DNA of 64,000 nt from Conoideocrella luteorostrata (Eukaryota > Ascomycota > Sordariomycetes > Hypocreales > Clavicipitaceae), in NCBI GenBank assembly GCA_032433595.1, contig JASWJB010000182.1, positions 24,407 through 88,406 on the forward strand, in the 5' to 3' direction. Each line of letters begins with the position of its first letter. The first letter of the stretch is position 1. Positions 3,249 through 56,094 of this stretch are shown in pieces. The notes below the pieces were generated by a model, which was not told the DNA's origin, did no database searches, and worked only from the letters and a program-made list of their open reading frames with translations. Position numbers and translations under genes: made by a program.

Positions 3249-4937
3249 TTACAGAGGGATCTCAGAGAGGAAGTGCTCAATCTCTTTGTCGATGACGTTG
3301 TGAACTTTCTCAACAAACTTCTCGGCCTTGCCGCCAACACTCTTGACACCCTTGACAACCTTGCCGGAGATTTCCTTGGCCTCATCCTTAGCAACCTTCT
3401 CAATCTTCTTCAGCTCAGACACCTGGGATGTGCCCTTGTAGCCACCAGCAGCAACAATCTTGGAATAATTATTACAGCCACCACCGTTCCAGGCGAGCTT
3501 GTTAGGGGTATCTTTAGGGATATCGGAGAGAACGCCTTCGGTGGAAATCTTGACAAGAGTTTCCTTAAGCTCCTTGGGAGTGATGGCGGCAACGGAATAC
3601 TCGGAGTCGCTGGCGGGCTGAAGAGAGAGGTAGTAGGCGAGGAGACCACAGATGTGGGGGGAAGCCATTGAAGTACCGGAGATGGTGTTGACAGCATAAT
3701 TGGAGCCGATCCAGGTGGACAAGATATTGAGGCCAGGACCGAAGATATCAGTACACTTGCCATAGTTGGAGAAGTAGGCACGGCTATCGTCCAAAGCAGA
3801 GGCGCCGACAGTCACGGGGAGCTCAGCTGCGGCCGGGGAGTAATTGCAAGCATCGGCATTGTCGTTACCAGCAGCAACAGCAAAGTGTACGCCAGCCTTG
3901 ACGGCGGCATTCACGGCGGCGTCGAGAGCTTGGGTCTTGCCACCGCCAAGGGACATGTTGGCGACGGAGCCCTTGAAACCCTTGCGCTTGCCGTCTTTAG
4001 CATCCTTGACCTGCTTAGTGTGGCTGGTAACAGCAAATTCAACACCCTTCACGACATCGGCCATGCTGCCAGAACCGTTGGAGCGGAGAACCTTGACGGC
4101 ATAGACGTGAGCCTTCTTGGCCACACCGTACTTCTTGCCGGCTATGGTACCAGAACAATGAGTTCCGTGGCCGTTGCCATCCTCATCCTCATCACCATCA
4201 GGAATAGTCTGGCCCCATTTAGCACGACCCTCGAAGTCGACGTGATTAATGTTGGTACCAGTATCAATGACATAGGCGTCAACACCTTCACCCCCCTCGG
4301 TCGCGAACAAGTACTTGTTGTATGTACTGAACTTGAGGGAATCCCGGTGGGAGATACGGGCAAGACCCCAGGGAGCCTGCCTCTCGGTTTCACCTGGATC
4401 ACACTTATCCTCTTGGATTGAGTGTTCAGAGGTGACGGGCACCATGGTATGGACGATAGTGTCTTTCTCGATGTACTCAACCTGCACGGAATCAGTGCCT
4501 GATATGAAAATAGTAGAACAATTTGGTGACAGTGGCCATGCCATCATGACGATATATCAATTAGGAATACTTACATCAGGATGATTCCGGACCTTCTCGA
4601 TGACTGACTCGGCGAAATGACCAGAGTAGCCCTTGAAGCCGTCAATGTTATAGGTGTGCTTCATGCCGGTGAAGGCGTCCACAATGGAAGACCCCAGACC
4701 TCGCTTGCGAAGCTCAAAGCGGTCCTCTTCACCATCGTTGTGGATATCCTCGACCCAGGCGTGATGCTTGTTGGCCTTGGTCGAATCGACGTGGTCCTTA
4801 AACTTGATGATGTAGGAGTCTGGGACGACGTTGGCGTGGACAGAGCTGAGAACGGGAGCAGATTCTCTGTGAATAGTCTCGGTACTGAATGCCGCCTGGG
4901 CAACAGCCGCGACGGAGAGGGCAAGAACGGTCTTCAT
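3249..4937 (-). CDS. PRB1: Vacuolar subtilisin-like serine protease (protease B / cerevisin type), precursor
   Basis: Model: exon 1 4937-4575, intron 4574-4482 (GTAAGT...GTGCAG), exon 2 4481-3249; 531 aa. The splice joins HPD to VEYIEKD, the usual junction at the end of the I9 propeptide. In order: signal peptide (MKTVLALSVAAVAQA), inhibitor I9 prodomain to about residue 130, then a peptidase S8 domain. The catalytic triad is visible as Asp about 194 (YVIDTGTN), His about 226 (GHGTHC) and Ser about 392 (SGTSMASPH), with the oxyanion Asn near 327 (AAGNDN). Length and the C-terminal KLAWNGGGCNNY block match vacuolar protease B of filamentous fungi (Aspergillus PepC/Alp2 group, Metarhizium Pr1H group), which degrades proteins in the vacuole and matures other hydrolases. 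The last 60 residues form a Lys/Glu-rich, probably amphipathic helical tail. Secretion instead of vacuolar sorting cannot be excluded from sequence. Confidence 0.95.
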
Positions 4938-40907: not shown

Positions 40908-42408
<1,501 letters not shown>

Positions 42409-46039: not shown

Positions 46040-47830
46040 GGCAATTCACTTACGTCCGCAATGGCCTTGGAATTGTGCTGGTCGTGCAACACAGATGAGA
46101 CATTTGACTTCCTCTGGACAAGTGTCGCTGAAATGCCCGAAGTTCTGACAGTCATAACAAAACTTGTCGGCATTGGCCAGATGGAATAATCCGCCTACCG
46201 TTTCGATGTAATCCATGTAGTCCTTGAATATGTTGGCTACTCTACCCCGTCGCCCAAGTCAAATTCGTCCCGTGCAGCAGGAATTTCGCATAACTGAGTA
46301 ACAATATCATGTATAGGATGCATCCTGGTGTGCTGGTCATAGTTCAGCAGCCCTTGCTCACTGCTTAGTTTTTGGAGCATAACGCGCCGATAAATTTCTT
46401 CTAGAGCAGCTAAGGACGGCAATTCTCTTGGAGCTGCATGGTCTTCTGGTTGTAGGTAGCGGCGAACGGAGTCGTAGACTGATTGTAGTTTACGCGGACA
46501 TTCCTCCCACAAAACTAGTTGCGTAGGACAATATTTATCTTTCGGAGCGGGAATCGTTCCTTTGGTCGAGTGAGAAGGATGTGCTATTTTCGGCTGTCGA
46601 TACAGACGGTGGCAATGAAAAATAAACTCGTCAAAGCTGGTAGGTCTTGATCTCTCCTGAGCCTGCTGAAGTTCCTCCTGGTCTTTAAAAGCTCTTTGTT
46701 GCCGATTGTGATGTGACCCATTTGTGCTCGGGATAGAGCAACATTGATGCGTGCTAGATCGCGGGTGAAGCCAATGCGTGAAGATCGCACAAGTGAAAAG
46801 ATCACAAATTCTGCCTCAGCGCCTGCGGAATCATCCACTGTACGTACTGAAACGAGGTCTGGGTGCATCTCGCGAGCGGAAATCTCATTAATATATAATT
46901 GAATAAGGTGTTTCTGTTGCTTGTAAGGTGTCACAACAAGAACTCGTCCCGCGCGTATTGGTTTGCACTGAGATTTTCACATCTTCGTTTCGGGGAAGTT
47001 GTAAATTCTGGACCACAAACCTCGCGATTTCTGCGGCAAGACGTGCTTCAGATTCGTTGGTGTACGAATTCCCGACGCGAGTTTCGTTGGAGTCAGTGGT
47101 CATGATTAAATGATTGCCTTGGAGTTCAGGTGTAATGTCTAACATCCAATCATGGACCTTTGTCAAAGCTGGTGTGCCTGCTCGTTTGACGATTTCCATA
47201 CGTCCCTGGTATACACGCGCTGCAATAAAGCCAGCAACGTTTCCCTCGGTGCGATGGTTATGAATGAGTCTGACCGTTGCTGCATTCATATACTCTACGC
47301 GTCGGAGCAAGCTTGTTCCAGTCTGATCAACCATCAATTTAGAACATCAAAACAATTTTCGATATCCTGCAGTCTGTCCACCTGCTTGCGTAATTTCTTC
47401 AGTCCTTGGAGGGCTTTGCCAGACATTGTCTCAAACTGCTGACGTAGGTACGCCTTGATGCTGATTTGAGACGGGGATTGGGAGAGCTTGTTCTTCTCTT
47501 GCCCCTCGGAACCCGGATGGAAGCCGCTTGTGAAGAAGCCGAGCGTTTTGATGAGAGTCTGTATCGTTCAGTCGACCTCATTGACACTCGTCTTGGAGAC
47601 GAAAGATGGTACAACCGCTACCAGGAGGCCATATAGGTCTTCCGACTTTGTAGTTCGGGAGGACGGTTCCGTTTGGTAAGCTTGGGGCATTCTTGTACCT
47701 GCTGTTGCTTGTAAGAAAAAAGCATCTTCAAGGGCTAGAGAATTTCTTACGCATAACGTTTATAGCGTCCTCTCCTTGAGAAAGAAAGTTCGTGTTGGTC
47801 TTCGGAATACTTTAAAACGAGGCATGATCT
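46040..47830 (-). pseudogene. Broken UPF1-like (SF1) helicase with C-terminal zinc knuckle
   Basis: Reading the minus strand from about 47830: a fragment beginning MPRFKVFRRPTRTFFLKE soon hits a stop. A later frame with an internal TGA at 47568-47570 continues through SISIKAYLRQQFET-like helical sequence to a stop near 47350. The next frame (from 47337) has QTGTSLLRRVEYMNAATVRL, SF1 helicase core sequence. A frame change near 46940 is needed to reach RVLVVTPYKQQ and then DLARINVALSRAQMGHI (motif VI). The segment SVRTVDDSAGAEAEF matches motif V but has Ala where Gln is usual. After a further frame change comes LWEECPRKLQ and finally a CCHC knuckle (CYDCQNFGHFSDTC) near 46160-46120. At least three frame breaks and one stop make it non-functional as one protein, unless several introns are missed. 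Related genes act in RNA surveillance or silencing. Confidence 0.7.
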
Positions 47831-49345
47831 GCACAAGCTTGCAATAGTCTTGTTGGTAAAAGAAAACTAGAAACAGAGACGAGAAAAGCTCTGCCTTTTT
47901 ATACTTTTATGGCTGAGGATGCAGTGAATCACGAATTGCTCAGTAGGCGATATCACATGCCTGGCTTGCTGACTTGAATGTGAATTATAAGTGAAAATAA
48001 AGCTATGATCATACGATAGAACCTTTATGGCCAAGATATATTTGTTGGAACCCTTCCTTCAAGCAAGCACAATAGTAAACATGCACAATAGGGAGCAAGC
48101 ACAATAGACTGCGCCCGCCTGCTTGTGAACAGGTGGTTGGGGAGAGTGATTATGCGCCCACTTGATTGTGAACAGGTGGCGAGGGAGAGTGACTATGCGC
48201 CCACTTGATTGTGAACAGGCGGTGAGGGAGACTGATTATGCATCCACTTGATTGTGAACAGGTGGCAAGGGAGAGTGATTATGCGCCCGCTTGATTGTGA
48301 ACAGGTGGCGAGGGAGTGTGATTTTGAAACGCCCCAGAACAACCATGTCGCTGTCAGCGGGGTTGTTCCAGCTCGGAGATGGGATGACTCCAGGATGACA
48401 TTCCTGAATGCAAAATAACTGACACAGAGCTCATGAACTAGTGTTATTGAAAGATTTGAACTGAAAAGCGTTTATGGGGGTTATTTAAGAGGGATATCTG
48501 AGAAGGATACTTATGAAGGAGAAAACGTTTCACCGGTGCTCATAATGCCATTGGAATTCTAAGAGTAGCTTGAGTCGCGTAGCAGCTCGTTTACGTACTG
48601 TAAGGGATTAAGAGAGCCAATACTAAATGGGAGTTTTCCGGAAAGTCCAGCGCCAACGTCATACGACATAAACGAGCACAAGTCACAATCACCGGATCAT
48701 AGCCCAAAACCGCGTCGTTGAGAGCAAAAATAGCCCTTGTTGGGAAGGAAGGTGTAGCCCCAGAGGACTCCAAGAGGACCCCGAAGGCAATCGAACCTCA
48801 GTGGGCTCTGTGATTCGGCTATCAAACGAGCCATGGCTAGGTATGAGGCGGAACGGCTGTGACGAGTGCACATGATACTGTACTTCACCCTTACTGAGTC
48901 ATCCAAATTTCTTGCGTCTCATTTTCTCTCCTCGCGAAGAATAGTCCGAGAGCAGACGAGAAAAGGGATATCTTGACCGCTCCACCGTTCAAGACGAGGA
49001 TGGAAGTCAGACCGCTCGCCTGAGTACTTCACGCGACCGACAGCATTCATAGCACCATCATCATGGGACTTCATCCATAATCAGATTTCATTCAGCTCAT
49101 TTAATTGCATAGTGTACAGGATGTTACATATCTCAGCCATCGTTCACAAGTAATTCCAGTCTATCCAACGATTTCTTGCTAGCATAATCACAACATGAAA
49201 AGAGATATACCGGATCGTGAATGCGAAACATTCTCTTTTTTCACAGCTTTTCATTCACACTTGAGTCTATACGCGAGCTAGATACGTACATAACTTAAGT
49301 TTATAATACCATCTCTAATGTTTCCTCTTCGATGTCGAAGCTATC
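47831..49345. other. Non-coding interval with a 43-bp minisatellite
   Basis: Apart from the minisatellite (next entry) there are shorter echoes of AGCAAGCACAATAG at about 48061-48110. Small minus-strand ORFs between 48591 and 48906 show no family features. Confidence 0.45.
48124..48338. repeat. 43-bp minisatellite, five copies
   Basis: The phrase TGTGAACAGG recurs at 48124, 48167, 48210, 48253 and 48296, exactly 43 bp apart. The unit continues with TGG(C/T)GAGGGAGAGTGATTA and TGCGCCCACTTGAT. Copies differ at one to five sites. 43 is not a multiple of three, so a conserved coding repeat is unlikely. Confidence 0.95.
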
Positions 49346-49945: not shown

Positions 49946-50010
49946 GATGACACACCCGGTTTCAAAATGATGAACGTCGTATTATGGAGAGGTCTTGTCT
50001 GGGAGATGTT

Positions 50011-50114
50011 TGGGAGTAGAGTCCAGGACAGAGAATGCTTGGGAGTAGAGTCCAGGACAGAGAATGCTTAGGAGTAGAGTCCAGGACAGAGAATGTTTGG
50101 GGGTCGAGTCCGGG
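50011..50114. repeat. 29-bp tandem repeat, three full copies plus a diverged fourth
   Basis: Units start at 50011, 50040, 50069 and 50098, exactly 29 bp apart; the core is GAGTAGAGTCCAGGACAGAG. The fourth copy is partial (GGTCGAGTCCGGGA). It lies 65-170 bp upstream of the orphan ORF start on the minus strand. Confidence 0.95.
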
Positions 50115-50123
50115 ATATATATA
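50115..50123 (-). promoter_or_regulatory. TATA-like element upstream of the orphan ORF
   Basis: The minus strand reads CTATATATATCCC here, about 170 bp before the ATG at 49945 and just upstream of the 29-bp repeats. If used, the repeats would fall in the 5' leader. The assignment rests on sequence only. Confidence 0.3.
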
Positions 50124-50932
50124 GGGGGGGGAAAGGCCCATTTGAATCAATGTTCGGAACAAGGTCAGAGCAGCCCGAGCGTCACAGCGACCTCATTACG
50201 GGCCTACGCAGTCATGAATGGCATGGTTGAACAGGAATCACCTTAAGGCGGTAGTTCACCGGACGCCTAGTGTTGTTCCACTCTACCCATAAGATATTTC
50301 CGTAGAAAATACGCTCATGGTGGCAAATTTTTACCCCCAGTTGCCTCATCGCTGTTCACTGCAACCCCTTCAGCCTTCCAGCAACTGCTTTGTCGTACAT
50401 TGTCGAGCAAAAAGTCGGTGTGGAATATTATGACAGCAAAGAAATTTGCACTCAACATCCACGTAATGCCGTGAGTCACCATCCTCAACAGCAGAACATA
50501 AATTTTGCCACTGTACCTGGCGCGTAACAACTGCTCCAGCGCCGCCATAATTATAACCACATATCTGCTACGGATTCGTGTTTGTACAACCTAGATACTA
50601 ACTTATGCGCACTCGTGCTTAATCATGAAGCTATTAATCCCTTTACACAAGCTCTTTAGTAATAAGTCCTTGCTTGCAAGTCCGATGGCGGATACTCTAC
50701 CTGACGATAATGTTATAGTACGTTCACGGCCGTAGCGGGCTCCACCGTAAGGACTCTTCGATTGCAGTCGAACGTTATACACTCAGAGCTGCTGAGGTTT
50801 TGACTGCCACACAACACAAATCCCGCTAGCCCTAGAGTACTATGAATTGGAACTGTTGGTCAATGTTCTCCGGCAGGGTATAGCTGGCATGTAATATGTT
50901 TTTCACTTCTGTGTAGCCCAGCGAAAAGCCCT

Positions 50933-51622
50933 CTACGGAGTGCCCAGCTCTAGTGGCGTTTTCATTATCATATCACACAAGCAGCTGGCCTTGTGTCCCG
51001 GATTACGCTCCCAGTCTGGCCGGAATTGCTGAATCTCCTGTCGACTTTCGCCACAAAAGAGACAGCGTTGAAGAATTGGCTGATCGCGAAACATACCATT
51101 CTCCACAAGGTCGCGACGAATCCATTCGGGGTGGCTTCTTACCACATGATCATCTAACTCCTTCCATGTTGAGAATACGCTGGGCGGGCAGGACCGGGAT
51201 GTCCGACAAAGTATGCAATGCCATCGTGGCAGCGTGTGCTGTGGCATGTGGTATCTCCAGTCTTTATATGAATTCGTGCAGTCGAATGGACAGCTACATG
51301 AGTCCGCCACGCAGAAGAAAAGGCTAGAAGTCATGAGTCTGATGGCCCCTGGTACGATTGATCGACTGAGTTAGCTGCAAAGTAGAGATAAAAGCGACAC
51401 AGTGGCTCAAACTCACCACCTCTAGCACTCCGCAGCAGCTTCCTCTGCTGGGCAAACCAGGAAACAATATGGACAGATAAAAACCTTGTCATTATGGTCC
51501 AGCTCAGGCATCCCGGGATATTCGCTCGCTAAAGCGTTCCCAAATAGGACAGATCCCGCCGATCTCTTCGTTGTTACTGGATGCTTCGCTGACGATGCTG
51601 CTTGGTTAATTTCTTTGTCCAT
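50933..51622 (-). pseudogene. C2H2/Cys-rich zinc-finger fragment of a fungal NACHT/ankyrin-associated type
   Basis: The upstream frame (51622-51422) ends with DKVFICPYCFLVCPAEEAAA, then EC and stop. The downstream frame (51334-50933) has CSCPFDCTNSYKDWRYHMPQ, WHCILC and a HVVRSHP-type His pair. Together they resemble the Cys-rich zinc-finger block (ICPYC...W..H...CxxxxC...W..HE..H...W.CxxC) found in many fungal proteins with NACHT or ankyrin domains. A donor/acceptor pair (GTGAGT...TTTGCAG) exists between the two, but stops lie on both sides of it, so the parts do not join in frame. A relic is most likely; the downstream ORF alone (133 aa) could still be expressed. Confidence 0.5.
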
Positions 51623-53002
51623 AGACTTCTTCTTTAAGAATTCCGTTACCGGTTACAACGATTTGATTTCCGATATCGTTTCATCCGAAACCAGGGTAAG
51701 AGGCGGCTTCTTGTCCTCAGCGTCGGCCATTTTGTAAAACTTGACTTAGACCTACGTATCAGGTGAAGAACGGCTTCAAAAAAGGCTTGGTTGGAGAGCA
51801 GACGGGGTGGAGCACAGAGCCATGCGAGCTTGATACGAAGTAATATCCTCCAGGAATAGTGCATGCTTGCTGCAGGATGACATGTAATGACTGATTCACC
51901 ATGGCACCGTGATCCAGGCGTTGCCGGACTTCATTATGAGGATAAATGGAAACGATTACAATGGGCTACAAAAGTTCTCACTACGATCCGTGATGGTAGT
52001 AACAAAGCCTCGTGCTGAGCACATAGAGCACAACACTTAGGTCAAAGCTTCATTGTTCGACTATAACAAATGCATAAAAACCCATTATATACGGGAGAGA
52101 GACCGAGATATGACGAAATCAGAGACTGTCCAAGGCTACAGTGTGCGGGGATTGTCGCGCAATTAGCTTGAGCATGTTCTTTCTGTGTTAACAAAGATGA
52201 TCCAGATGTAAACAAGCATACAGATGTGACGAAGTATCTGCGACACTCTCCGTCAAGTTAAAGGAACATTTGGGACAATTTTCTCCAGCAATAATAGAGT
52301 ATCTGTGGCTACTACTAGTGACTAGTGGGGTGATTAGTACCCAAATAGCAATTGTAGTCGGGCAATTGAGGGTCACAGATTCTCCAATAGACATGTACAA
52401 CATGACAACTTCTGGTTATCTTAAATCTGTCATGTTTCGGCATTCACCACAATTTCCCTATCAAGCTTCTTAAGAACGTCACCTTTCGACGCGAAACCGG
52501 ACATCGACTTGACTTACACAGAGAAACGACCAATTTGAACCATTTAAATGCATCATTCACACAATTAGTGTGAAGTTTCGCCTTTTGCTGAGTTTTATGA
52601 CAACCCGTGTAAAGGTTTTTGCGCAGTGACTGATTGACAGCACACCCATACCATGTCTTATTCATTCTTACATGTAGCCCTCCGAGATATCATCGCGGTT
52701 GAGAGACAACGGTATTCGCTAGCAATAGGCAATCTTGTACGACGAGCAGCCTCGTTGTCTACGTGACATATTTTTGCAGTATGCTTCGTTAATCCTAGCG
52801 AAACCGCCAAAGACAGCCTGTCACATTCCTCACTTGGAGCAGGTAGACCATGACGTCATGGCGATGGGCCTTACGACATTAATGTAGCGCCATTTCTCCC
52901 CAACTGACCCCGTTTGAACTTCTCCCTCCTCCTATCACGCGCTGGCTGGATCATAGATGAATTGCGTTTCGGTTTTGCCATTGTTCGGTTTTGTTAAGTC
53001 GC
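51623..53002. other. Non-coding interval upstream of the cystatin gene
   Basis: Two minus-strand ORFs (52665-52444 and 52403-52188) contain Cys pairs (ENCPKCSFNL) but no recognised family and no clear splice join. A short hydrophobic leader frame starts at 52957 and is discussed with the cystatin gene. Confidence 0.4.
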
Positions 53003-53432
53003 ATGGATCCATCCATTGTTCCAGGGGGCTGGTCGGATGCCAATGCCACAGACAAATTTGTTCAAGAAGCGGCAGAATTCGCTGTCACAGAGTTGAACAA
53101 ACTATCAGACTTCAAGGTTGCATACCATTTAGTTAAGGTTGTCGATGTTCAGACCCAGGTTGTGGCCGGGTCCAATTACAAGATGAACATTGTGAGTTGT
53201 GTTCCGACAGCAGCTACATCAGAGTTGTTTTATTTCAGAAACCAACACAGTCCTCCTGACACATAACAAACAGATCATATCAGACGCGGCATGCAAGAAC
53301 ACGGTAGCTACAAAGAACAGTAATTTGAAAAGAGAGGGCCTTAGGAAAGAGTATGCTGTAACTGTTTATAGTAGGCCTTGGGAGAATTATAAGGAACTGA
53401 CCAGTTATAAATGTACAAGGGAGCACGCATAG
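53003..53432 (+). CDS. Type-2 cystatin-like cysteine-protease inhibitor
   Basis: Two exons: 53003-53191 and 53274-53432, with an 82-nt intron (GTGAGT...AAACAG), phase 0; 115 aa, the length of a mature cystatin. All three inhibitory elements are present in order. The N-terminal Gly pair is in VPGGWSDA (8-9), the first hairpin QVVAGSNYK is at 52-60, and the second hairpin Pro-Trp is at 98-99 (VTVYSRPWENYKELTSYKC). The block QEAAEFAVTELNKLSD forms the expected central helix. Cystatins wedge these three parts into papain-like proteases (cathepsin L/B). Only two Cys (70, 110) remain of the four usual in type-2 cystatins. As drawn there is no signal peptide; a hydrophobic leader starts at 52957 but one base out of frame. 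Cystatins are rare in ascomycetes and this one looks most like animal, especially insect, secreted cystatins (recall-based). An alternative first donor exists but gives a poorer join. Confidence 0.85.
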
Positions 53433-54184
53433 ATGAAGAGCCTAGGTAACGACAATTTAGCTTAGTCGCTTTATTGAGTTCATAAGTTTTCTTCGTTACT
53501 CGTGGACTAGTCCGAATTTCTAATATTACAGTATTTGATTCCAACTATACCCTGCTGGAGAAGATTAGCTAACAGCTCGATATTTAGGTTATAGTTCTAT
53601 ATTATACATCGAGGTGTAAACATAGTTTGGTGTAAAGCTGCAGTTCGCCCATTTGTTCCGTGTTGCGGGTCAGGAATGTCCCTGAGCTACCACGACCGAA
53701 AGTGCCGTAAGTGTGAAACTATTCCATTTTCCTCTTCAGAACAGTACCAGCACAGCCTATCGCAAGAAATAGAATCCTTAATAATCCTTGCCCTGCCTCC
53801 CTAAACTCCCTTTCACTAGTTGCAATACCGTGCACGTCGAAGCAGTGTCGTATTCTCAACGTGCTAGTTCACTGGGCATCAGTCATGGCACTACAGCCAA
53901 TCTAATCTGGTCAGACTTGACTATCGCGAGGGAATGTCATCAGACGCTTAAGTACGTAACATAGATTACAATCAAGAGCTCTGATTGATCTAAGGTTCTT
54001 CATTCCCCTGGCTATGTTACTTTCCCCTAGGGCTGGTGTCCCAATTTCACGCCAAAAACATATAAGCCGCCCGCTCGCTAATATAGAACAAAACAACTAG
54101 CACCCTCCACATCTCTATAAATCCAACCTGTACCATGGATGCACCATTAATGGCGCAAGTCCTTGACTCAAATGCCTATAGAAT
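53433..54184. other. AT-rich non-coding interval
   Basis: Lies between the cystatin gene and the 3' end of the Zn2Cys6 regulator gene. No supported ORF, repeat or RNA gene. Confidence 0.5.
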
Positions 54185-56094
54185 TCATGCCAATACAGGA
54201 CACGGCTCATCAAAGCAATCCTCCCAGCCTGTCTTGCCCGATGCCCAAAACGCCTTTAACTTATTCAGAGTTATCGTCGGGCCACAATAAGATTGAGGTG
54301 CAACACTTATTTTCCTCAGGTAATCCTCAATGGTCGCCTGGTCGGAGGGTTTCCCATCAACGAGAGCCACTCCAAGGACTGCCAGCGGCCAAGACAAGTA
54401 TATTTTGGTGGGTCGAATATCCATTGCTTGACAGGCCTGCCGCATAAGCTTATCTCGAATCGCCACTTTCGTTTTTTGGTACGACGCTGCAGTGGGTGTC
54501 TCATGTGTCTGTGGGGAGTCGCCTTCAGCCGGAGGAGGGCTTGACATCGGCGGCGGCGGCAACGATAATACACCATACAAGGTCACGGCGGTCTTGAAGA
54601 TTTTACCAACAAGAACCATTTCCGGCTTTTGGGGCACAGGGTACGGTTCAATCCAGTTTTCAGGGGAGAAGCGTTCGATGTCGACGAAGATGTCACGGGC
54701 AAGCGGCCAGATAACGTCCTTGTATGAAACAGTTGCGGCTAATTGGGTTCGTAACCGATTGATTTGTATGATATTCAGGAACAGGTGAGTAGGACATGGC
54801 ATCTCGGAGTACATGGTCTTGGAATAAACGGCGCACAATTCGGGTGTTGTCCAACTAGCGAATCCTTGTATCTGATCTGTGGCAGGGCTGGTTGTGTTGG
54901 CCATGGTGGCAATACTAAGCTCAGAAACAGTCGTCAGTTTCTTTGTGACTCGGGCGAAAGCAATCAATAACGTTGCTTACATCAAGATGAGTTGTATAGC
55001 CAGTATTGGCGATGGTCCGCCTTCGCTCAAATCCAACACTCTCAGCACACCGCCATAGAGACGTATAAGAGTTGCGCAGCCTTCTATGTGGGGTCTCCAG
55101 GTCGGACTAAGTAGCGTAAGCTGTGCAAGTTAGTCGAGCTGACGGCCAATGAAACCAGAGTAGACAGGGCATTCCGATTTATCCATACCTCGACATGCAG
55201 AATATCCATAATTCTGTAAAATACGCCAATGGCTGGCTCTGGGCTGTTAATGAGACGGTTGACTCTATCAAGAGAATGTGTCATGTGAAAGTAGAACCTG
55301 GCCCATATATGAGCGAGCGAGACCAGTTGGTCAGGAGCTGGTAAAACACCACGTTTTCTGCATGCAGTCTTGATTCGATGAGCAGTTACAACCATGAGGA
55401 AGCTGTGTTCAATGATGATTGTAGGTGGTCCGACGAATTGGTTATCAAAATCGCTGCTTCCGAGCGAATTTGAAAGGTGCTCTGGAGCCATTACCTCGAA
55501 TACTAAATCAGATGGCCGCATTAGCCCTCCCATATCCAGAAGCCGCATTTGCTACCATCAGATGAGGGATGTGCTTTAACCAACAGTATCTGACGCCTTC
55601 AACAATGTCCCAACCCGGCGGTTTCAGTTCAGGAGACTTCGAAGAGCCAGGGCTTTGAGATTGTGACTGAAGCCGCCATTTTTCTACAATTTGCTGCGGG
55701 GATATTGGAGGGGTAGGCTTTTTGTCTTCGCTGTGCTGTCCCTTATTCTGCGAGTCTGTTACTGCTGGTGGTGAAGGGGTCGCATACTCGCACCATCGTC
55801 CACGGGAGATGCACTGTTTGCAGTGCGGCTTTGCCTCGTCGCACTTGATTCGGCGAGCTCTGATCTTGGAGTAAGCGGGGGTACATACATGCGCACGCGC
55901 ATAGGAAATGGCTGTTGGCTTCAAACGAACCGACAAGTCTTGCACCCTGTTGTTACCTTGGGCGCCCAACGCTTCTGACGCGGCCCTGTGCGCTTGATCT
56001 CTGCCGTAGACTGGGATCTTGCGTCAGGAACATGCACCGGGATAGGGTTCCCTTGGCCGTCTTGCAGATGACCTGTGGATTCTTCAATCTTCAT
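54185..56094 (-). CDS. Zn(II)2Cys6 transcription factor, with one frame problem
   Basis: Exons: 56094-55931, 55859-55189, 55120-54981, 54914-54185. Splicing exon 1 to 2 restores the binuclear zinc cluster TTGCKTCRARRIKCDEAKPH followed by CKQC, which contacts CGG-type DNA half-sites; the intron lies inside the cluster, as is common. The rest is a fungal TF middle region (LLSPTWRPHIEGCATLIRLY; DIFVDIERFSPENWIEPYPV) ending at PCPVLA. Introns at 55188-55121 (with GACTAAC branch) and 54980-54915 are well formed. Near 55555-55570 the frame of PHLMVA must shift by one base to reach LLDMGGLMRPSDLVFEVMA. Either a base was gained in GCAAATG, or a very short 43-nt intron (GTCAGA...GGTAG) is removed. With either repair the protein would be about 550-567 aa. 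It may regulate nearby accessory genes (inference). Confidence 0.8.

Follow-up and report, generated by a model that had tools for sequence, protein, structure and literature searches.

Fungi are described as having lost cystatins and stefins alike, and both families were absent from the ∼100 fungal genomes covered in the available excerpt of Kordis & Turk, 2009 (PMC2784779). In the open-licence PMC literature, judged mostly by titles and the opening lines of abstracts, we found no description of a fungal cystatin, and six peptide words of the protein reported here did not occur in that literature. Stefins are set apart from true cystatins by a Leu instead of Trp in the second binding loop (excerpt of PMC9986714). 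Animal-derived or animal-like proteins of other families are on record for Metarhizium: the sterol carrier Mr-NPC2a was acquired from an insect (excerpts of PMC4626037 and PMC7776561), and removal of an animal-like serpin of M. brunneum lowered virulence in flies (excerpt of PMC13236867). In Fusarium oxysporum, the N-domain of the FOLD effectors is structurally cystatin-like (excerpt of PMC10942635).

We analyzed a window of 64,000 nucleotides, the last 64 kb of an 88,406-base contig (C182) of a filamentous fungus, with a cystatin gene that stops about 10.6 kb short of the end of the contig. The initial annotation, made from the letters alone, had called a cystatin unexpected in such a fungus, which agrees with the excerpted survey of ∼100 genomes.

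Gene structure and cystatin identity

When codons and stop were checked in the window sequence, the two-exon, 115-residue reading of the initial annotation was borne out at its exact coordinates: 115 codons and a stop on the forward strand (Table 1). The intron length is not divisible by three, and the exon-1 frame, if read through, runs into a stop within it, so the full cystatin domain requires splicing. The splice sites are canonical, and removal of the intron is predicted.

The product matched the Pfam Cystatin family PF00031 over residues 8–99, covering model positions 1–92 of 92, with an E value of 2.3e-17 and 63.5 bits against a curated cut-off of 22.2 bits. Exon 1 alone reached 46.1 bits in a six-frame search of the genome. 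In phmmer searches, 43 distinct sequences of solved structures were matched at E≤0.1, with animal cystatins near 1e-15; the top match was Ornithodoros cystatin-2 (3l0r, E 1.2e-15), followed by 4it7 (E 3.8e-15), which we take to be Ascaris CPI. The match is far beyond chance, and the gene is a real cystatin. Its Gly pair, QVVAG and Pro-Trp form the usual three-part wedge and stand in the correct order, just as had been noted from the letters. All 15 invariant columns of a five-row tick/Ascaris alignment are kept, the query itself being counted in the invariance. Across the whole genome (46.4 Mb; 46,424,744 bases in 620 contigs) the cystatin family was matched once, by this gene.

Table 1. Features of the cystatin locus and its surroundings; positions are those of the 64,000-nucleotide window.
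Feature	Position	Strand	Remarks
Short interspersed repeat, 58 bp	52546..52603		400 bp upstream of the ATG; 81–88% identity, on 11 other contigs
Exon 1	53003..53191	+	Residues 1–63: N-terminal Gly pair, helix, first hairpin; PF00031 positions 1–55
Gly8-Gly9, N-terminal binding element	53024..53029	+	From the sequence; invariant in the five-row alignment
QVVAG, first inhibitory hairpin	53156..53170	+	Residues 52–56; from the sequence and alignments
Intron, predicted	53192..53273	+	82 nt, GTGAGT...CAG
Exon 2	53274..53432	+	Residues 64–115 and stop: Cys70, Pro-Trp hairpin, Cys110
Pro98-Trp99, second inhibitory hairpin	53376..53381	+	From the sequence and alignments
Repeat stretches	53487..53578		53487–53561 also on contig C161 (76% identity); 53532–53578 inverted at 50850–50896
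Zn2Cys6-type fungal regulator, in pieces	54185..55969	-	Zn_clus 55508–55969; Fungal_trans_2 54185–54967 weak, below cut-off

Type-2 frame and relatives

The stretch from VAG to Pro-Trp, measured in every row to whichever Trp pair comes last, is 41 residues long in the query, 41–50 in 33 scored animal rows and only 21–27 in 16 plant rows. Cys70 falls exactly at the Cys1 place, the 14th residue after VAG in 35/36 scored animal rows; Bursaphelenchus is the sole scored animal row with no cysteine there, one of the 15 tick rows was unscorable and the mite row was left out of the count. None of the 16 plant rows has a cysteine at this place. Cys110, 11 residues after the Trp, corresponds to Cys4 and is found at the same distance in the scorable rows of three ascarids, 14 ticks and five vertebrates. 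The Cys2 and Cys3 places are taken by Ser79 and Tyr90, and the majority of the aligned rhabditid nematode rows likewise have a Tyr at the latter place. Because of the loop length and the placement of Cys1 and Cys4, the frame is, on sequence grounds, that of animal type 2. The query thus has the long second half between the hairpins that marks type 2 (I25B) but lacks the two disulfides from four cysteines, retaining Cys1 and Cys4 while one partner of each has been replaced. It shares the missing leader and missing disulfides of type-1 stefins (I25A), yet carries Pro98-Trp99 where these have Leu, and the short, cysteine-free second half of a phytocystatin is not its own.

No signal peptide was found in the open reading frame. 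Five upstream-exon models, ATG-led, with GT-type (and GC) donors, AG acceptors at 52965–53026 and introns of 45–900 nt, were not convincing by hydrophobicity and eye; a short hydrophobic ATG-led stretch starting at 52957 is in a frame other than the cystatin's. Of the complete type-2 cystatin first proposed, the class stands as regards loop length and the Cys1/Cys4 places, though not as regards the two disulfides and the signal peptide, and the word complete is unwarranted because Cys2 and Cys3, of the four type-2 cysteines, are replaced and the search for a signal peptide found none.

The query alone, searched against 5.8 billion proteins, recruited two candidates by shared words, neither of which matched at E≤0.001. 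Recruitment was by shared 5-letter words among candidates of 63–201 residues, a length range that excludes multidomain insect cystatins; we estimate that a relative of this length with more than about 55% identity should share enough words. Profiles were built from rows chosen among ticks, a mite, nematodes, a toad and an unnamed source. A tick and Ascaris profile gave 345 matches, the best 120 of which were mostly ticks, and a query-centred profile of nine short motif rows gave 212. The best 120 of the 212 begin with Toxocara, an unnamed row, Ascaris, Aphelenchus and a Caenorhabditis; intermingled plants and ticks follow, and vertebrates rank lower. Since the Toxocara protein supplied two of the nine motif rows, its rank is partly built in. 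There was no fungus-named row among the best 120 of either search and no insect-named row either, although insects may be missed by this approach. A viral carrier of the cystatin was looked for in IMG/VR, by protein and by alignment scan, and no relative was confirmed.

The best pairwise scores were nearly equal for nematodes (186), ticks (176) and plants (175). Over residues 62–96 the best nematode row reached 52, and ticks, vertebrates and plants stayed at 30 or below; shuffled maxima had a median of 31, with 95% at 40 and none above 50. Residues 1–56 scored best against vertebrates (113), then plants (104) and nematodes (99). The run YSRPWENY is common to the query and Cylicocyclus. Judged by the score of residues 62–96 and this run, the affinities of the protein would lean to nematodes, with residues 1–56 going against them.

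Our main tree held 57 rows (the query and 56 of 213 fetched homologues) over 127 columns, with no insect row; the 157 homologues kept out were mostly near-copies and unnamed rows. The query, whose end branch measured 1.08 changes per site, stayed unplaced in this tree. The best tree set it with plants at a support of 71/83, not starred, and AU tests rejected none of the alternatives (nematodes 0.262, ticks 0.377, vertebrates 0.362). With animals only (38 rows) the query fell next to ticks (78/67), a placement flagged for long branches, and AU tests without plants rejected neither nematodes (0.137) nor vertebrates (0.303). An animal donor appears more likely, an invertebrate being the likelier source. 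The initial annotation had suggested a recent capture from an insect and had proposed a database search and a tree as checks. These returned neither a fungus-named nor an insect-named row among the matches listed and left the query unplaced, and an insect source is not supported; nor does a recent date find support, because no close relative was found: nothing matched the query alone at E≤0.001 and the end branch is ∼1.1 changes per site. Transfer from an animal would most likely be old or far-travelled.

Probable residence in the fungal genome and rival explanations

The cystatin gene lies between repeats of the same genome. The upstream repeat, discrete and ∼60 bp long, contains a CACAC...GTGTG palindrome and has copies in both orientations, and its flanks differ among the six copies that we aligned. 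The downstream one begins 55 bp past the cystatin stop and belongs to a second short dispersed repeat (50850–50896 and 53532–53578; ∼804–895 on contig C161), inverted across the gene. A Zn2Cys6 gene lies about 2 kb away on the right side, which also holds a P-type ATPase, and the left side has an AAA_12 helicase split over two frames, together with a subtilase, an ArgC-like gene and a Beige/BEACH gene. These fungal domains, along with the initial annotation, are the ground for taking the organism to be a filamentous ascomycete. With the repeats 884 bp apart on the two flanks, a chimera could have formed only through two separate joins within that span, and the repeats together with the nearby Zn2Cys6 gene make one unlikely. 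The cystatin gene is very probably resident in the fungal genome.

The GC content of its coding sequence (0.44) is below that of all 12 long window open reading frames compared (0.48–0.62), and its GC3 (0.48) is below that of 11 of the 12 (0.47–0.77). The comparison of base composition with the flanks that had been suggested was run, and 0.44 matches the local background of 0.43–0.44. No strong RIP-like skew was seen in dinucleotide ratios around the gene. The zone had been described as rich in repeats and relics; the repeats and the split helicase are there, though to a modest extent. The helicase (46584–47346, reverse strand) is probably either a relic or a gene interrupted by an intron. Subtilase genes or pieces lie at 3249–4547 and 41160–41741, both on the reverse strand, and the closest solved structure to the former is the serine protease 3f7o, which we take to be that of a nematode-egg fungus. 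Tandem repeats occupy 48110–48323 (43 bp, 5 copies) and 50006–50115 (29 bp, 3.8 copies), and a Cys/His-rich open reading frame at 50933–51370 (reverse strand), with no Pfam match, has two weak relatives in the genome (27–28% identity).

Animal-to-fungus transfer is our best current reading of the sequence evidence, and the alternatives were weighed against it. Assembly chimerism or contamination with animal DNA is improbable: beyond the two joins required, the genome has just one cystatin, and nematode cuticle-collagen and arthropod-cuticle families found no match in it, a weak indication since no control genome matched either. Capture of a plant cystatin is more improbable still. It would account for the plants beside the query in the unstarred tree and for up to 53% identity over 81 aligned residues with an unnamed plant-like row (P0172), as well as for the query's AEFAVTELN, which we take to be like the plant helix motif. 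Against these likenesses, none of 16 plant rows has the long second half or a cysteine after VAG, and over residues 62–96 plants do no better than the shuffled median whereas the best nematode row does.

Two further explanations are unlikely but deserve more weight. In one, slightly the more credible, an animal cystatin was indeed transferred but lost its leader and now drifts without use, non-functional or barely expressed. The missing signal peptide, the loss of both type-2 disulfides with one partner of each replaced, and the gene-poor, repeat-bearing surroundings fit such a copy, while the open frame, the canonical splice sites and the full set of invariant columns in the tick/Ascaris alignment count against it. 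In the other, a rare fungal cystatin was inherited vertically, lost in most fungi and elsewhere overlooked or too diverged. An old independent lineage would have the long end branch and the want of close animal relatives that we observed, and annotation may easily miss short leaderless genes; this has to be set against the excerpted 2009 survey of ∼100 genomes with no cystatin (PMC2784779) and against profile searches whose best 120 matches each named no fungus.

Proposed function and comparison with known systems

No domain of the C1A papain family was found in the genome at E≤0.001 (two candidates scored; a control was matched in 3 of 14 genomes), and a bleomycin hydrolase (C1B) was clear at 502 bits. 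With no C1A match in the fungus's own genome, the target of the cystatin is more likely to be a foreign protease, though the fungus's bleomycin hydrolase may be one. Judged by its binding elements, the protein would inhibit papain-like proteases. The role first suggested, a secreted blocker of host cathepsins, is unsupported as stated because no leader was found.

We put at about an even chance the explanation in which this single resident cystatin came by horizontal transfer from an animal type-2 cystatin, is leaderless and more likely has a foreign target. A type-2 gene of an animal, more likely an invertebrate, would have passed to a filamentous fungus, whose copy came to be without both type-2 disulfides and a recognisable signal peptide. 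Lacking these, the protein would work as a leaderless, stefin-like inhibitor in the cytosol, or else would be released by lysis or unconventional secretion, and its likelier targets would be proteases from another organism, be it host, prey, plant or competitor. The narrower version, in which an invertebrate and perhaps nematode cystatin was made leaderless and disulfide-free, aimed at foreign papain-like proteases and put to use by a fungus with no C1A proteases, we regard as a tentative possibility.

If borne out, an animal-plan cystatin resident in a filamentous fungus would clearly depart from the reported fungal loss of cystatins and stefins and would add another likely animal-to-fungus transfer to that of Mr-NPC2a. 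A route from a secreted, disulfide-bonded inhibitor to a leaderless one would be shown as well. Mr-NPC2a and the Metarhizium serpin, as described in the excerpts cited above, are precedents in hypocrealean fungi for an insect-derived gene and an animal-like protease inhibitor, respectively; they belong to other protein families, neither being a cystatin. The likeness to the excerpted FOLD effectors is structural only, whereas the query is a cystatin at the sequence level with inhibitory motifs.

Among cystatins proper, the nematode type-2 proteins (Ascaris CPI, 4it7, and those of Toxocara, Aphelenchus, Cylicocyclus and Caenorhabditis) have the same three binding elements and, like the query, Cys1 as the 14th residue after VAG and a long second half; the better full-length rows show 31–39% identity over 100–105 aligned residues, and Cylicocyclus has both NYxMNI and YSRPWENY in common with the query. 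At least nine nematode rows are without Cys3 and Cys4, and 13/14 keep the Cys1-Cys2 pair, the two cysteines left in the query being Cys1 and Cys4. Tick cystatins (OmC2, 3l0r; the sialostatins; mialostatin) include the best solved relative (E 1.2e-15) and share the length and an ELTSYKC-like end, but all 14 scored rows have two disulfides and most, by reading of the sequences, have a leader-like N-terminal extension, both unlike the query. Type-1 stefins, considered together with the cystatin-like fluke stefins (excerpt of PMC9986714), resemble it in having neither leader nor disulfides, and differ from it in that the fungal protein has the Pro-Trp and the long second half of type 2.
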